From positions 1 through 64,000 of the forward strand of contig NZ_ASSJ01000081.1 of NCBI RefSeq assembly GCF_000473895.1: a stretch of DNA of 64,000 nucleotides, written 5' to 3'. The notes under the pieces are model-generated. The model searched no databases. It had not been told where the DNA came from and saw only the letters and a list, made by a program, of their open reading frames with translations. The translations under genes were made by a program, and so were the position numbers. Origin of the DNA: Rubidibacter lacunae KORDI 51-2 (GTDB lineage Bacteria > Cyanobacteriota > Cyanobacteriia > Cyanobacteriales > Rubidibacteraceae). Each line of letters starts with the position of its first letter. Position 1 is the first letter of the stretch. Below, in pieces: positions 4,794-43,838 of this stretch.

Positions 4794-6653
4794 ATGTCCG
4801 TATTTCTTACGCTTGGCGTCATTGCGATCGCGCTAATTTTTTTCGTTGGCGAGTGGTGGCCGGTTGACTTCACCGCGTTAATGGTTGCGATCGCCCTGAT
4901 GGTATTGGGGTTGGTAACGCCCGAAGAGGGCATCTCCGGTTTCGGCAACACGGCAACGGTGACCGTGATGGCTATGTTCGTCCTCAGTGCCGGGGTGGCG
5001 CGGACGGGAGCCTTGCAGACTGCACGGGACTTTTTGATCCGCTGGGGCGGGCGATCGCCGCGCCGTCAAATCGCCGTCATGAGCCTGGTCGTCGGGCCGA
5101 TTTCCGCCATTATCAACAACACGGCCGTTGTCGCAGTGTTTTTGCCGATCGTCGAAGATTGGTGCAAGAAACAGGGCATGTCGGTCTCGCGGCTGCTGAT
5201 GCCGCTGTCGTTTGCAGCAATTCTTGGCGGCACGATGACTGTTGTCGGCACGTCCACGAACGTCCTGGCCAGCAACCTCTCGCGACAGTTGGGCTACGGA
5301 GAGTTCCACCTCCTGCAGTTTGCCGGAATGGGCGCGCTCACCTTCGTAATTGGAGCAGCCTATCTGACATTTGTAGTGCCGCGCCTGCTCGGCCGGCGTC
5401 CAAGCTCGGGCGTGCGAGCGGCGGCCGAGCAGGCAAGTATTTCCAACGTTAGTGAAAACGTGGTTTGGGGCGATCGCGACTACGGACTGAACGATTACGT
5501 CAGCGAACTCGTTGTTGCCCAGCGCTCGAACTTGGTGGGGCAGACCCTGCGAGCGAGCGAGCTGCAGCGGAAGTTCGACGTTGACGTGCTGGAGCTAATT
5601 CGCGACGGCGTGCATTTCCCTCAGCCCCTAGCCGATAAGGTGCTTAAGGCCGGCGATATTTTGCTCGTGCGCGGGACCAGCGCCGATCTCCTGCAGATTC
5701 GCGACGAGCGCGGTCTCGACATTCTCCCCGAGGTTAAGTTTGGCAAAGAGGCGATCGCCGCGCAGCTTGAGACCGGCGAGGAACGCATTGCCGAAGTGCT
5801 GATCTTATCGAACTCGCGTCTGATTAGCTCTACGCTCAAAGACTTACGTTTTCGCCAGCGCTACAACGTGACCGTGTTGGCAATCCGGCGCGGTCAGGAC
5901 GTCCTGCGCGAGCGCTTGGGACGCGTTCCCCTGCGTTTTGGCGACTTGCTGTTAGTGCAGGGACCGCGCGAGAGCATCCTGGGCTTAAAAACCACCCGCG
6001 AGCTGCTCGTGATCGACCAAGCCGATCGCGAAAGTTTGCGAACGAACAAGGCTGCGATCGCTGTGGCAATTGTGGCCGGGGTGGTGGGGCTGGCAGCGCT
6101 GAATTGGTTGCCGATCGTCGTCGGGTCGCTGTTGGGCGCGGTCTTCATGGTGCTAACCGGTTGTTTGCGTCCGGGCGAAATCTACGGGGCCGTGCGCTGG
6201 GACGTAATTTTTTTGCTGGCGGGGCTAATTCCACTGGGGATTGCGATGGAGAAGTCGGGGACGACGCGCTGGCTGGCCGATTGCCTGCTCGCTCTCGGCG
6301 GCAACTTGTCTGGATATTGGGTGCTGTTCTTTTTCTACGTGGCGACGGCTCTGCTCACCGCCGTGCTCTCGAATAATGCATCGGTGGTGCTGATGTTACC
6401 CGTTGCCGTTAACGTTGCGAACTCGCTACAGCTCAACGCGATCGCCTTCATGTTTGCCGTGGTGTTTGCTGCCTCGCATAGCTACATGACGCCCCTCGGC
6501 TACCAGACGAATACGATGGTCTACGGTCCGGGCGGCTATCGGTTTACGGACTTTATTCGCGTCGGCGCACCGCTGAGCCTGTTACTCGCCGCGACGACCC
6601 CGCTGCTGACGATTTGGATTTACGGGTTGGAGATGCCTGCACCGCTGCCTTGA
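4794..6653 (+). CDS. SLC13/DASS family anion transporter with two RCK_C domains
   Basis: This predicted inner-membrane protein of 619 residues is counted from the ATG at 4794; an in-frame ATG at 4659 would add 45 polar residues with no membrane character. Two hydrophobic halves of SLC13/ArsB-type transmembrane helices flank a cytoplasmic middle that holds two consecutive TrkA-C (RCK_C) domains. Each has the usual VGQTLRASEL-like or ISSTLKDLRF-like opening and an LLVRG or LLVQG end. The first half carries NNTAVVAVFLP and GTSTNVLAS, and the second half SNNASVVLMLP, the helical-hairpin motifs of the family. Known cyanobacterial relatives transport sulfate or other anions with sodium. The substrate here is not decided by sequence. 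Confidence 0.88.
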   Translation: MSVFLTLGVIAIALIFFVGEWWPVDFTALMVAIALMVLGLVTPEEGISGFGNTATVTVMAMFVLSAGVARTGALQTARDFLIRWGGRSPRRQIAVMSLVVGPISAIINNTAVVAVFLPIVEDWCKKQGMSVSRLLMPLSFAAILGGTMTVVGTSTNVLASNLSRQLGYGEFHLLQFAGMGALTFVIGAAYLTFVVPRLLGRRPSSGVRAAAEQASISNVSENVVWGDRDYGLNDYVSELVVAQRSNLVGQTLRASELQRKFDVDVLELIRDGVHFPQPLADKVLKAGDILLVRGTSADLLQIRDERGLDILPEVKFGKEAIAAQLETGEERIAEVLILSNSRLISSTLKDLRFRQRYNVTVLAIRRGQDVLRERLGRVPLRFGDLLLVQGPRESILGLKTTRELLVIDQADRESLRTNKAAIAVAIVAGVVGLAALNWLPIVVGSLLGAVFMVLTGCLRPGEIYGAVRWDVIFLLAGLIPLGIAMEKSGTTRWLADCLLALGGNLSGYWVLFFFYVATALLTAVLSNNASVVLMLPVAVNVANSLQLNAIAFMFAVVFAASHSYMTPLGYQTNTMVYGPGGYRFTDFIRVGAPLSLLLAATTPLLTIWIYGLEMPAPLP

Positions 6654-6761
6654 ACCTGCTCCTAACGCGATCGCGGTCCTCCAAGAGCTGAGGTGGAGGT
6701 CGGCTCTCTGGATAGAGGCGCAGTTAATGGCGATTGGGGCTGTAGATCGGCGCGATCGGTT

Positions 6762-6775
6762 GGGGCGATCGCCCC
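6762..6775. repeat. Extended HIP1 palindrome GGGGCGATCGCCCC
   Basis: This perfect 14-bp palindrome contains the cyanobacterial HIP1 octamer GCGATCGC. It lies about 70 bases before the Bax-inhibitor-1 gene. HIP1 copies are scattered across the whole window; this is one of the longest perfect ones I noticed. Confidence 0.7.
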
Positions 6776-6846
6776 ATAGGCACTGCTTGGAACTGTGGGC
6801 TAGACTCGGGGTGCAACACTCTGTTTGCACTAGGGGATTGAAGAAC

Positions 6847-7539
6847 ATGGTTATTGCCGCAAGCGCGCGTCCGAGCGAACGCGCCGAGTTTATTCAGAAG
6901 ACCTACTTGCACCTGGCAGGTGCGGTCGCTGCGTTTATCGTCTTTGAATTCTTGCTGTTTGAAACGGGAATTGCTCAAGGGCTGACGGCACTGCTCTTCG
7001 GCAATGGCGGACTCGCTTGGCTGCTCGTTCTGGGAGCGTTCATGCTGATCGGATGGCTGTCGCGCGGTCTGGCTGCGCGTGCCGATGACACGAATCTGCA
7101 GTACCTGGGACTCGGGTTGTATGTCTTCATCCAGGGCATCATCTTCGCGCCGATGTTGTTTGTCGCCCACACCTACTTCCAGGGCGAAAACATCATTGCC
7201 ACTGCCGGCGTGCTGACCGTAGCGATGTTCGGCGGGCTGACGGCGATCGCCTTCACGACAGGCAAGGATTTCACCTTCCTGGGCGGCATTCTCCGGATTG
7301 CCGGATTTGTGGCGCTGGGGCTGATCGTCTGCTCGCTGATTTTCGGATTCTCGCTGGGACTGTGGTTCTCGGCTGCGATGATTATCTTCGCGTCGGGTGC
7401 CATTTTGTACGACACCTCAAACGTCCTGCATCACTTCCAAACTCATCAGCACGTGGCCGCAGCCCTCGAACTGTTTGCGTCGGTAGCACTGCTCTTTTGG
7501 TACATCCTGCGGTTGCTAATGCAGCTTTCGCGGAATTAA
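6847..7539 (+). CDS. Bax inhibitor-1 / YccA family membrane protein
   Basis: This 230-residue protein is almost entirely hydrophobic, with about seven predicted membrane helices. It has the Bax-inhibitor-1 pattern of small-residue-rich helices and the late DTSNVLHHF segment followed by a final hydrophobic helix and a short basic tail. Bacterial members are inner-membrane proteins, some shown to conduct calcium or to bind the FtsH protease; the role here is unknown. The start at 6847 removes an arginine-rich extension unlike the family. It converges with the DedA gene. Confidence 0.88.
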   Translation: MVIAASARPSERAEFIQKTYLHLAGAVAAFIVFEFLLFETGIAQGLTALLFGNGGLAWLLVLGAFMLIGWLSRGLAARADDTNLQYLGLGLYVFIQGIIFAPMLFVAHTYFQGENIIATAGVLTVAMFGGLTAIAFTTGKDFTFLGGILRIAGFVALGLIVCSLIFGFSLGLWFSAAMIIFASGAILYDTSNVLHHFQTHQHVAAALELFASVALLFWYILRLLMQLSRN

Positions 7540-22919: not shown

Positions 22920-23258
22920 TTACCCCTTGGATTTCTGGACTTTGTAAGCATTGAGCTCGGCACGCGCGCTGGCAATCGAAGCACGCAGGTCGTCGATCGC
23001 GGCTTGCGTATCGGCTGGGGTATTAGCAGCCATAGGAGTCCCGCTTCCCATAGGATCGTTTTCGGCAATCGTGCTGCCGGCAACGCGATCGGCACGGGCG
23101 AGCACGTCGGCACTAAACTGCCGTAAACGTTCGCGCTGCTCGGCGTCGAACTTCCCGAGTTCGCTGAGCGCTTCCGTGACGGTGCGCTCGACCTGCTCGA
23201 ACATCATCTCAGCCAAAGCACGACCGATATAGAAGGCGCGATGGGTGGGATTGGTCAT
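22920..23258 (-). CDS. Conserved cyanobacterial small helical protein, function unknown
   Basis: This 112-residue protein opens MTNPTHRAFYIGRALAEMMFEQVERTV, followed by a long amphipathic helix (EALSELGKFDAEQRERLRQF), a flexible Gly/Thr/Pro-rich linker and a final helix. There is no signal peptide. It resembles a family of short cyanobacterial/plastid proteins of unknown function (possibly DUF6825, from memory only). It is just upstream of the ABC1 kinase in the same direction and may share a transcript. Confidence 0.6.
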   Translation of the reverse strand: MTNPTHRAFYIGRALAEMMFEQVERTVTEALSELGKFDAEQRERLRQFSADVLARADRVAGSTIAENDPMGSGTPMAANTPADTQAAIDDLRASIASARAELNAYKVQKSKG

Positions 23259-31326: not shown

Positions 31327-31788
31327 ATGAGTGCGATTGCCTCATCGCGTAAGTCGACCTCCCACCCGACTTCCAAGCAGGCCACCCTAAATAATGCGAT
31401 ACGGCAAAACACTGTGGACGAACCGCTCGCACAACCGTCGGATTTAGCGAGACGCCTCGCAGCGGTATTGGTGGTCGTGGTTCTTGCCCTTGTAGTTGCT
31501 TTTGTCGGTACTAATCTTTACCGCCTATCGGATCCCTACGTTCGGGAAGTCTTGGCGCTGACGAGTAACCCGGAGCGTGGTGAGGCAATCTTTCAGATTA
31601 ATTGTGCGGGCTGCCACGGGCGTGGTGCCGACGGAAATGTCGGACCGAGTCTGCATAACCTTTCGCAACGAAAGTCAGAATTCGACATTATTCATCAAGT
31701 TACGAGTGGCAAAACGCCTCCGATGCCTGAGTTTCAGCCAACGTCTCAAGAGATGGCGGACTTACTGGGGTACTTAGAGACTCTATAG
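31327..31788 (+). CDS. cytM: Cytochrome cM
   Basis: This 153-residue membrane-anchored class I c-type cytochrome has a polar N-terminal stretch of about 40 residues. A hydrophobic helix at 43-63 serves as an uncleaved anchor, and the haem site CAGCH is at 93-97. The tail contains VGPSLHNLSQRKS, TSGKTPPMPEF (methionine ligand) and QEMADLLGYLETL. The pattern is that of cytochrome cM, conserved across cyanobacteria and implicated in regulating electron flow and heterotrophic or stress growth rather than photosynthesis directly. The N-terminal extension before the helix is longer than usual; a later start cannot be excluded. Confidence 0.9.
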   Translation: MSAIASSRKSTSHPTSKQATLNNAIRQNTVDEPLAQPSDLARRLAAVLVVVVLALVVAFVGTNLYRLSDPYVREVLALTSNPERGEAIFQINCAGCHGRGADGNVGPSLHNLSQRKSEFDIIHQVTSGKTPPMPEFQPTSQEMADLLGYLETL

Positions 31789-40216: not shown

Positions 40217-41161
40217 CTAACCTACTGCTACCCAGTGGTTCGCGAGCTCGAGCTGGCGGATCAGTTCCAAAACGCGATCGCTTGCTTCTTGGCGACCGCT
40301 GTCGCGATAGGCGATCGCGCCACGCTGTAGGTCCCCGAGCGCGGCCTCGTCGTCACCGAGGCGGTGGCGGGCAAGTCCGCGTGCGACGTAGATTGGGGCA
40401 CGATCGGAGGCGTGGGGTATGGCGCGAGTTAAGTCGGAAACCGCTGCCCGATAGTCGGCAAGCAAATGACAAATGCAGCCGCGGTTGTAAAGCGCGCGGG
40501 AACTCCCGCGGTCGAGAGCGATCGCGTTGGTGAAGTCTTGCCGGGCTTGCTCGTAGCGCCCGAGTTGCCAGTAAACGATGCCGCGATCGGTCAAAATTGC
40601 CGCGCGCTCTCCGCGACTTGGCATACTGTTGCGCGCGGCGAAGTCTAGGGCCTGCGACAAATCGAATAGAGCCCGATCGCTGTCGCCCAAAGCCGAGTAA
40701 GCCAACCCCCGGTTGTAAAGGGCTGGCAAGCGGTGAGCTGCGCTGGCGCTCGCGATCTCAAAGTCCGCGATCGCCTCTTGATGGTCGCTCAACCGATAAC
40801 GAGCCAAGCCGCGATGTAAACGCGCGGCGGCGTCGTCGGGGGCAATCGCAATGACGGCAGTACAGTCAGAGATCGCTTCGCGGTAGTTTCCGGCCTCCAA
40901 CTGCTGCAGGCAAAGGTGATTGCGCGCGGCAATCTCGCCTGCAGCTGGAGGAACAACTGCCTCAGTTGCTAGCCACGGGGGTGCGATCGCAACATCGATT
41001 GTTAAGGTTAGCGCTAGTAAGCAAGTAGCGAAAATCAAGCGCAACAATTGCTTTATTCCTGGTAGGCGTTCGCCAATGGTGACCGAACGTTCGCGAGGCT
41101 CTACTTCCACAAGCACCTTGCTGACACGTTCTTCAATAACCCCAAAGGGTGCGGAACGCAA
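40217..41161 (-). CDS. TPR-repeat protein with N-terminal hydrophobic segment
   Basis: This 314-residue protein has one N-terminal hydrophobic segment (IKQLLRLIFATCLLALTLTIDVAIA, signal anchor or signal peptide). At least six tetratricopeptide repeats of the form GNYREAISDCTAVIAIAPDDAA, AALYNRG and YRAAVSDLTRAIP follow. TPR arrays bind partner proteins; location is periplasmic or membrane-associated. The partner and function are unknown. The 40 residues before the hydrophobic segment are basic and may come from an over-early start. Confidence 0.82.
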   Translation of the reverse strand: MRSAPFGVIEERVSKVLVEVEPRERSVTIGERLPGIKQLLRLIFATCLLALTLTIDVAIAPPWLATEAVVPPAAGEIAARNHLCLQQLEAGNYREAISDCTAVIAIAPDDAAARLHRGLARYRLSDHQEAIADFEIASASAAHRLPALYNRGLAYSALGDSDRALFDLSQALDFAARNSMPSRGERAAILTDRGIVYWQLGRYEQARQDFTNAIALDRGSSRALYNRGCICHLLADYRAAVSDLTRAIPHASDRAPIYVARGLARHRLGDDEAALGDLQRGAIAYRDSGRQEASDRVLELIRQLELANHWVAVG

Positions 41162-41218: not shown

Positions 41219-41562
41219 TTAGGAACGCGGCCAGCCTTTTTCGGCTGGGTAGAGAACGTACCCAGCGACCGTCTCGGTCTGAGCGTCGGTCAGGCGTCCC
41301 TGAAATCGCGGCATTGCATTTTTCCATAGGTTACTTGCTTGACGATTGCTTCTTGCGAATACATACCGAACTGCTCCAAAGCATCCATCTTCAAGGTCTT
41401 GTTTGCCATGATGTGGTTGATTCACGAAGCGTGGCAAGCTGCGCAGTTCGACTGAAAGAGTTGTGCGCCGTTCGGTTCCGCCAATGCCGGACGCGTCCAG
41501 ATCCAGGTCAAACAGGGCGCAAGCAGACAGGTAGAAACAACAATTTGTTTCAGGGCTATCAA
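41219..41562 (-). pseudogene. petJ: Cytochrome c6 (petJ) pseudogene, one nonsense and one frameshift
   Basis: Reading leftward from a TTG at 41562, the frame gives a signal peptide (IVVSTCLLAPCLTW, cleavage after PALA) and GAQLFQSNCAACHAS with the haem motif CAACH at 41431-41445. A TGA then stops it at 41422-41424. The same frame resumes with [20 protein letters not shown] and VKQVTYGK until a run of five T on the plus strand (41319-41323). One extra base there restores [23 protein letters not shown] and the AEKGW end, which finishes at 41219. Every hallmark of plastocyanin-replacing cytochrome c6 is present, broken by just two changes. Confidence 0.85.
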
Positions 41563-41572
41563 GTCTCTCCAA

Positions 41573-41989
41573 CGGGAAGCAAGTGTAAGCCGGTCACAAC
41601 GTTAAAGGCGGACAGCCATTACAGTCAACAGACAGCTCGTCATAGTAAACATGAAAAGATGTCCTAAACCGTGATTCGTCTGATGACATCTTGGCTCCAA
41701 GCCGCCGCTTTTTGGGGGACGTGGGAGTGTTGTCTCGACCGTCAATTGCGGTCGCCGAAAGATGCGAAGCATGTTTTGAATAGTTCTGACCTCGAGTCAA
41801 TGCCGACACTTTGCCTGTCAAAAAAGTCTCAGCATGTAATTAGTTTTCATATTAAGAAGATATGACTCGGCATAGCTTGACTACCACCCCGAGCAGTGAT
41901 TGGCTCGATATTAGGTGGATCGAGCGTTGCTATGCTTTGCGTGAAGTCGATAGCCTTTTTTGTATTGAATCCTCGCCTGTTGCAGGATA
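41573..41989. other. AT-richer intergenic stretch
   Basis: About 420 bases between the cytochrome c6 remnant and purU are clearly lower in GC than most of the window. A 60-codon rightward frame at 41862-42044 overlaps the purU end and is not supported. Confidence 0.35.
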
Positions 41990-42853
41990 TCAGTCGAAAA
42001 CAACTGTACGATTGTTATATTCAAGTACGCGATTCTGTAGGTGAAGCCAAACTGCCTTAGATAAAACAATCCGCTCTACATCTTTACCTTTTCTGATCAG
42101 GTCGATTTCCGAGTCGCGGTGGCTTACTCTTATCACTTCTTGATCGATGATAGGACCACCATCAAGTTCCTCGGTAACGTAATGGGCGGTTGCACCGACA
42201 ATTTTGACGCCGCGTTGATAAGCTCGCCGATAAGGGTGTGCGCCGGGGAAAGCCGGGAGGAATGAGTGGTGAATATTAATGACTCTAGAAAACTTAGCAA
42301 GGAATGCAGGACTGAGGATCTGCATGTATTTAGCAAGTACCACTAAGTCAATGTCATATTTATGGAGCAGCTCGAGCTGTTGTCTCTCTCGATCGCCCCT
42401 GTTTGTTTTATCGATGGGTATGTAATGGAAGTCAATTTCAAACTGTTTGGCAATTGGTTCTAATTTTCGATGGTTGCTGATGATTAAAGGGATGGTAGCT
42501 CGCAGTTCACCAGATTGATGTCGCCATAACAAATCAAGTAGACAATGCTCTTGTTTGCTAACCCAGATAGCCAGTCGAGGAATGCTATCTGAAAAATGTA
42601 GTTGCCAACTAGCTTCTAGCTCTGAAGCCAGCTTGGAAAACTCATATTCGATCGCTTTGCGCTCGAGCTCGAACCCATCCATGCTCCATTCTAGACGGGT
42701 GAGAAATACTCCTTGAACCCGATCGGTATGGTGGTCGGCATGAATGATATTACCGTTGTTGGCATGAATAAAACCTGAAAGAGTGGCAACCAGTCCGCGT
42801 CTGTCCGGACAGGAAACTAATATTGTTGCTGTTGGCGGGAGTGTGCTAGACAT
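41990..42853 (-). CDS. purU: Formyltetrahydrofolate deformylase
   Basis: This 287-residue enzyme hydrolyses 10-formyl-THF to formate and THF, balancing one-carbon pools. An N-terminal ACT domain (ATILVSCPDRRGLVATLSGFI) precedes the formyltransferase-like domain, with ISNH (the family's SNH site), VVLAKYMQIL, HHSFLPAFPGAHPYRRAY and the HYVTEELDGGPII loop with its conserved aspartate. The ATG at 42853 gives the usual start. The gene is more AT-rich than its neighbours, which may indicate recent acquisition, though PurU is also found as a native gene in other bacteria. Confidence 0.95.
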   Translation of the reverse strand: MSSTLPPTATILVSCPDRRGLVATLSGFIHANNGNIIHADHHTDRVQGVFLTRLEWSMDGFELERKAIEYEFSKLASELEASWQLHFSDSIPRLAIWVSKQEHCLLDLLWRHQSGELRATIPLIISNHRKLEPIAKQFEIDFHYIPIDKTNRGDRERQQLELLHKYDIDLVVLAKYMQILSPAFLAKFSRVINIHHSFLPAFPGAHPYRRAYQRGVKIVGATAHYVTEELDGGPIIDQEVIRVSHRDSEIDLIRKGKDVERIVLSKAVWLHLQNRVLEYNNRTVVFD

Positions 42854-43838
42854 CTTGGGAGAGCTATGGTGCAACTATGACTTCCTCGATTAGCGAAACG
42901 CAACGAGGAATTTCTACACTTGCATACCGGCACTAGCAGCCATGTGCAGCGATCGCGAGAAAACTGGTTCCAGAAGTTCCCTTAAACCGCGGTGCATAGT
43001 AAACAAGCAAGGACTATTGCACGAATAATAGCTGGCATCGTTCCCAGGAAGCCAAACGTTGAAACAAACCTTTAATCAAAAAGCTATTGGGCACCTCGAT
43101 TAATTCGCTCAAGATCGAAGTTCAGCACAGCAGCCTAGGCATTTCAGTAGCCAATACACTAAATTCCCGCAATCTATAGAGGTCCCTTATTAGAACAGCA
43201 GGAGTTCCTGGAGCTTCGATCTTACTGACTCAGCTCCATTGTCTGGTGGCATCGAATTGGGTTTGCATGCTGTCGTCGATTATGGCTTGCTCCTCATGCG
43301 AAAAAGCGTATTTGTGATATCCTCTGGGCAGAGCCCTGACACTTCAATTATTCCTCCAGATTGAGAAGACACCCAAGACTATCATTGCCGTAACTGGTCT
43401 TTCGCTGACTGCACAGAACGGGCGGGCCATAGCTATACAAAATAGCTGGAGCGGAAAACAGCCGGAACGACTGGTTTTGCCTCCAGAAAACATGCCGTGC
43501 TCTCCCGCAGTAGTCGGAGATTATATAAAACACACGCAGTTTGCCGAAGAGATAGCAACGTCCGTCCGATTCAATTGTGGTCGCGCCTCCGCTTGCCCCA
43601 ACCGACTGTCTCCTAACTTGCTCGCAGGAGATCGGGGGCCGTGGTTCGTTGCTGGCTAACGTCGATGCCGCAAAATGGCAGAACAACGAGCAAATTGTTG
43701 GAGTCGATGCCACCGTGACCGATCTTTCCATAACGTCTGTCCACGGGGGCTGCTGTGAAAACTGAACTTTGACGCGATCGCCGGGGTTGCATTCCACCGA
43801 TGTCTGCGACAACACGATGTATTCGCGAGATTGTCTAG
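42854..43838. other. Long AT-richer spacer
   Basis: This spacer of nearly 1 kb holds one dispersed repeat (43089-43170) and a leftward 155-codon frame (43348-43815) without any recognised motif. I do not call that frame a gene. Confidence 0.35.
43089..43170. repeat. Dispersed repeat, IS-terminus-like, copy 2
   Basis: It starts GGGCACCTCGATTAATTCGC, identical in its first 26 bases to 46008 onward, and stays recognisably similar for about 80 bases before fading. The same core ATTAATTCGCTC is at 32036. It is probably the end of a decayed insertion sequence. Confidence 0.6.

Follow-up and report, generated by a model that had tools for sequence, protein, structure and literature searches.

Does the cytochrome c6 gene (petJ) of Rubidibacter lacunae KORDI 51-2 still encode a working protein and, if it does not, what takes its place in photosynthetic electron transport? 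Cytochrome c6 is an iron-containing electron carrier, and plastocyanin is a copper protein. The remnant of petJ occupies positions 41562-41219, on the minus strand, of the 64,000-nucleotide stretch of DNA analysed here (the window), and its coding sequence is interrupted at two places. We conclude, with a probability of roughly 0.82, that petJ in this strain is a true and probably young pseudogene, and that a single plastocyanin serves instead.

Frame reading and profile matches agree on the extent of the remnant. From a TTG start codon (41562-41560), which lies 39 residues ahead of the CxxCH motif, the frame runs for 46 codons to an in-frame TGA at 41424-41422, the third codon past the haem-binding motif CAACH (41445-41431); beyond this TGA the next stop in the same frame is at 41292-41290. 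Recognizable c6 sequence continues from the TGA as far as a five-base homopolymer (41323-41319), the point at which the frame changes. The second half is read in the new frame through the codons for Ala-Met-Pro (AMP, 41317-41309), whose Met we take to be the expected axial haem ligand, and then KGW, to a terminal stop at 41221-41219. The N-terminus is hydrophobic and, by eye, signal-like, ending in ALA. The original prediction had placed a broken cytochrome c6 gene at 41219-41562 with no strand stated, and had attributed the break to a TGA at 41422-41424 and a frameshift at 41319-41323; its coordinates are right when read on the minus strand, and both lesions are present in the sequence.

The identity of the remnant is well supported by the models. 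With X placed at both lesions, the read-through product matches NCBIfam Cytc6PetJCyano (NF045930) with an E-value of 4.7e-34 and Pfam Cytochrome_CBB3 with an E-value of 2.2e-12, the latter above its cut-off. It thus resembles cytochrome c6 in its haem motif, AMP, C-terminal KGW and hydrophobic N-terminus, but differs in a frame that is interrupted twice and in an NF045930 score of 116.6 bits, under the cut-off of 135. Uncorrected DNA returns the same model in two pieces, one at 41299-41544 (E 2.8e-20) with a single TGA inside it and one at 41231-41323 (E 5.6e-7). On these sequence matches, we regard a chance resemblance to c6 as excluded. We also considered a lost start codon as a third lesion and rejected it, since a TTG at this position is common: of 30 loci with a c6 frame, 13 have a TTG 38-39 residues ahead of CxxCH, and 12 have an ATG 33-40 residues ahead.

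The neighbourhood is also that of a c6 gene, as the c6 genes of relatives likewise lie near a TPR gene. Next to petJ is a gene for a TPR-repeat protein (40217-41161, minus strand), and a relative of this gene was found in the stretches fetched around petJ from five other genomes of the family (G001, G002, G004, G005 and G007). The upstream neighbour, named by eye, is an open PurU-like gene for formyltetrahydrofolate deformylase (41990-42874, minus strand).

Whether the two lesions are biological depends on the quality of the assembly, and here the two differ. The draft comprises 4,153,658 bases in 99 contigs and is 99.63% complete; it was built from 454 GS-FLX Titanium reads at 30x with Newbler 2.3, according to the part of the genome paper available to us (PMC3910548). 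The shift is in doubt because its run is a homopolymer in such an assembly. In the accessible part of a study of 454 metagenome assembly, homopolymer errors affected 2.13-2.78% of genes, were biased toward A and T, and were more frequent in longer runs (PMC3277595). The TGA, in contrast, sits outside any homopolymer, in a column that is Gly in all 29 of the other aligned c6 sequences. A single substitution away from a homopolymer is not a typical consensus error of 454 sequencing. The shift is of the classic 454 error type and the TGA is not, which makes a real stop, and with it a dead gene, probable. In our judgement the TGA is very likely genuine, and the balance leans only slightly toward a genuine shift.

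These considerations bear on three other accounts of the locus. It is possible, tentatively, that only the TGA is real and that the frameshift stems from a miscalled homopolymer in the 454 reads; this account is nested in the main explanation, as the gene would still be dead. The sequencing platform and the position of the shift in a homopolymer speak for it, but the run is just five bases long in a window that holds 107 runs of five bases and 36 longer ones, and a second lesion in an already dead gene requires no error. An account in which assembly errors explain both lesions, and in which the strain makes a working cytochrome c6, is unlikely. Besides the 454 origin of the draft, this account can draw on the retained box upstream of petJ and the open petR and petP frames described below, and on the 283 pseudogenes among 3,790 predicted genes in the draft, given in the part of the genome paper at hand (PMC3910548), a count that may include miscalls. 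It would, however, need an atypical substitution error outside a homopolymer and two independent errors within one 344-base gene, and a small repeat-protein gene, described below, likewise finds no match in R. lacunae, a hint at further losses from the switch. Finally, some c6 could be made if the message were recoded, by readthrough of the TGA and by ribosomal or transcriptional slippage over the A-run. Slippage of frame at A-runs is known from other bacteria, and petJ is readable on either side of each lesion, but one short gene would require two recoding events, and the interrupted petJ of a relative (G001) is shifted elsewhere and has no such TGA. We consider recoding highly improbable.

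The relative just mentioned deserves a comment of its own. Its petJ (L038, on G001:C5, 6010-6340) carries one shift, in a seven-A run at another place than in R. lacunae, and the TPR gene that follows (6485-7363) looks, by eye, shifted near its end. We therefore do not take this genome as proof of a shared petJ loss, for which it is too weak; its petJ stretch may reflect poor assembly instead of decay. In the window itself, a Pfam scan of 19 of the 93 gap fragments gave no match, a sample that gives no error rate. The segment at 22920-23255 of the window is an open frame with a match to DUF6825.

With petJ read as a pseudogene, the residues that remain can be compared with those of intact relatives. 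In the remnant, 11 of 82 compared residues are unseen in any of 29 other c6 sequences, whereas 27 of those 29 show 0-6 unseen residues, and two divergent ones show 10 and 25. The remnant departs from three of 35 near-invariant c6 columns; in the same 27 sequences the figure is 0-1 of 36. The earlier statement that the rest of the gene is well conserved is therefore only roughly correct. This deviance need not be decay, because the intact plastocyanin gene (petE) of R. lacunae is similarly deviant: 10 of its 103 residues are unseen elsewhere, which ranks it third among 27, and it differs at 3 of 36 near-invariant columns. For the same reason, relaxed selection on petJ is unsupported. The lineage of R. 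lacunae is divergent as such, and the residue counts of petJ give no sign of decay beyond this and fit a recent loss. The kept box and a remnant only somewhat more deviant than petE are consistent with a short time since the death of the gene; they are also consistent with a working gene that was misread twice.

The loss of petJ would leave the strain in need of another carrier. The original prediction had inferred a reliance on plastocyanin or on another c6 copy, and had proposed a search of the whole genome for petE and further petJ copies; that search yielded one intact petE and zero other c6 genes, which bears the inference out for plastocyanin. The single petE match (C8:588-884) lies on another contig than petJ and scores 127.1 bits against TIGR02656 (cut-off 87.85). 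Its 136-residue frame contains PHNVVF and YCQPHRGAGM, in which the His, Cys, His and Met that are presumably the copper ligands are present, as judged by eye. Searches of the whole draft with three c-type models (PF13442, PF00034 and NF045930) found no second c6 copy. PF13442 matched only a cytM-like gene (at 31567-31776) and the petJ remnant; PF00034 matched the cytM-like gene and a gene on C50 whose frame reads, by eye, as cytochrome c550/PsbV; NF045930 matched the remnant, as two pieces, and weakly the cytM-like gene. The cytM-like gene itself, a name that is our assumption, is an intact c-type cytochrome gene at 31327-31788 on the plus strand of the window. A second petJ may yet be hidden in a gap of the 99-contig draft.

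Together these data suggest how R. lacunae would transfer its electrons. Translation of petJ would halt two residues past the haem motif, and no working cytochrome c6 would form, whether the downstream frameshift is real or not. Electrons would then pass from cytochrome b6f through the single intact plastocyanin to photosystem I. Every family genome searched has plastocyanin, so c6 would be needed only in copper shortage, and this may be why the loss was tolerated. Three steps of this scheme are inferences: the TGA would be of biological origin, it would not be recoded, and the entire electron flow would go through plastocyanin; photosynthesis in R. lacunae very probably depends on plastocyanin. 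We found no literature on petJ or petE of this organism. The words plastocyanin and cytochrome are absent from the text of the draft-genome paper (PMC3910548), and Rubidibacter goes unmentioned in the portion of a c6 family paper available to us (PMC8358224). In the endosymbiont of R. gibba, as far as the accessible part of the report describes it, petJ and petE are absent, not broken (PMC2246100).

Comparison with the family and the class indicates that this end state is not exceptional. Plastocyanin (TIGR02656) scores above its cut-off in all nine family genomes, while petJ is unbroken in five of the nine (G002 and G004-G007), interrupted in R. lacunae (G000) and G001, and without a match of petJ strength to NF045930 in G003 and G008, the last of which is only 85% complete. 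Across 291 sampled genomes of the class, counted by hand with thresholds chosen in this analysis, 21 lack a petJ match better than 1e-15, and 10 of these have no match at all. R. lacunae belongs to the sample and yet not to the 21, because the petJ remnant scores 2.8e-20. The genomes counted as petJ-bearing include ten small ones of family f34, whose petJ matches reach only 6e-20 to 9e-25. Eighteen of the 21 have a plastocyanin match of 1e-30 or better, two (G130 and G141) have one of about 4e-22 that is perhaps under the model cut-off, and the remaining genome (G294, 87% complete) reaches only 1e-5. As 20 of the 21 genomes without clear petJ thus have a plastocyanin match, plastocyanin without clear c6 is a recurrent state, and the end state of R. 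lacunae is an ordinary one. R. lacunae resembles these 20 of 291 genomes in having plastocyanin and no intact c6 gene, and differs from them in that its dead petJ and upstream box can still be read; R. lacunae also keeps petR-petP.

The copper-sensing petR-petP genes and the box ahead of petJ appear to have outlived petJ itself. In Synechocystis, as far as the portions of the reports available to us describe it, PetR represses petE and activates petJ in copper shortage, whereas in the presence of copper it is degraded by PetP (PMC7896320; PMC12292863). The petR gene of R. lacunae (C55:70399-70734) is open and matches PF03965 (BlaI family) with 88.9 bits against a cut-off of 22.6. Directly after it is an open PetP-like frame with HECGH that aligns with 16 frames of relatives; PF05569 (M56) gave no match at 1e-3 in R. 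lacunae, and the NCBIfam models gave none either. This order, a BlaI-like regulator with a putative BlaR-like protease frame behind it, resembles that of Synechocystis PCC 6803, as do the presence of petE and a box ahead of petJ, to judge from the accessible part of the report (PMC7896320). R. lacunae would differ from PCC 6803 in its broken c6 target and in the lack at petE of a box of the form searched. Among 18 PetR sequences the one from R. lacunae deviates most, with 29 of 132 residues unseen elsewhere, and second is that of G003 (18 of 132), which is without petJ; the PetP of R. lacunae is the third most deviant of 17 (56 of 241). With two cases, the deviant PetR of genomes without an intact petJ may be taken as a lead only.

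A PetR-like box, GACGAGCTGTCTGTTGAC, with a putative regulatory role, lies at 41624-41641 (minus strand), some 80 bases before the petJ start codon. In a search of the window with a pattern made from this box, the exact match is a self-match and carries no weight. The family pattern ACNNNYTGTCTKTTGMHW was derived from petJ upstream regions, that of R. lacunae included. In the nine family genomes ACNNNYTGTCTKTTGMHW occurs 15 times, against five matches for the reversed pattern. Eight of the 15 sites precede petJ or its remnant by construction, and the remaining seven, set against the five control matches, are a modest excess. These seven gain weight because of their positions. A box precedes a small repeat-protein gene in G002, G003 and G004, and in G006 and G007 one precedes the gene of a related protein that looks secreted and has a Met-rich stretch; the extra box of G005 has no frame of at least 60 residues behind it, and the seventh site is that on C27 of R. 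lacunae, described below. In 14 of the 15 sites the box starts with ACA and contains TCTTTTG, at the second of which places the pattern permits only T or G, and the box of the petJ remnant departs from both. No box of the ACNNNYTGTCTKTTGMHW form was found at petE in any of the nine family genomes, which speaks against transferring the Synechocystis scheme unchanged, unless the site at petE has another form.

The small repeat-protein gene, which we would guess to be Slr0601 or Slr0602, has a match in eight of the nine family genomes; R. lacunae has none at 1e-3, with the reservation that the matches in G001 and G003 are only 47-49% identical and a more diverged copy could be missed. In G003 (L069, C31:1984-3688), the small repeat-protein gene with its box adjoins petR and petP, in a genome without a petJ-strength match. 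The Met-rich secreted-looking protein of G006 (L094) and G007 (L098) is, at a guess, a copper-related outer membrane protein.

The region upstream of petJ recurs elsewhere in the genome. The 206 bases at 41599-41804 (minus strand) have, by genome comparison, one further copy in R. lacunae, at C27:5210-5415, which is 76% identical, contains the box and lacks petJ; its box is nearer to the family form than petJ's own. A CRP/FNR-type frame (5701-6282 of C27:1-15000, L099) starts 327 bases past the first base of this box, and its closest model is PtrA, at 63.7 bits far under the cut-off of 300. Three genes come next, all on the opposite strand to the CRP/FNR-type gene: dpsA, which scores 323.7 bits against a cut-off of 300; a gene resembling that of a rod-core linker, at 202 bits against 430; and one that fuses a CP43-like antenna (350.4 bits, cut-off 335) to a PsaL-like domain (149.8 bits, cut-off 231). 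It is tempting to speculate that the R. lacunae copper switch is not just idle but rewired, such that PetR would tie copper status to this iron- or stress-response cluster and not to cytochrome c6. The reading draws on the dead petJ, the repeat-protein gene without a match, the most deviant PetR and the copied box on C27, and we regard it as doubtful.

In summary, the petJ remnant of R. lacunae appears to be a snapshot of a lineage that is dropping the iron carrier and keeping the copper carrier, and the TGA is its decisive lesion. With 20 of 291 genomes carrying plastocyanin without clear c6, the loss of petJ is unsurprising and of a known kind of evolutionary outcome. This analysis adds the open petR-petP pair, the surviving PetR-like box, the absent match to the repeat-protein gene and the 206-base upstream copy. 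More than the broken petJ itself, it is the copy of its upstream region and the regulators left behind that are of interest, and the regulators raise the question of what role a copper-sensing repressor-protease pair would have after the death of its c6 target.
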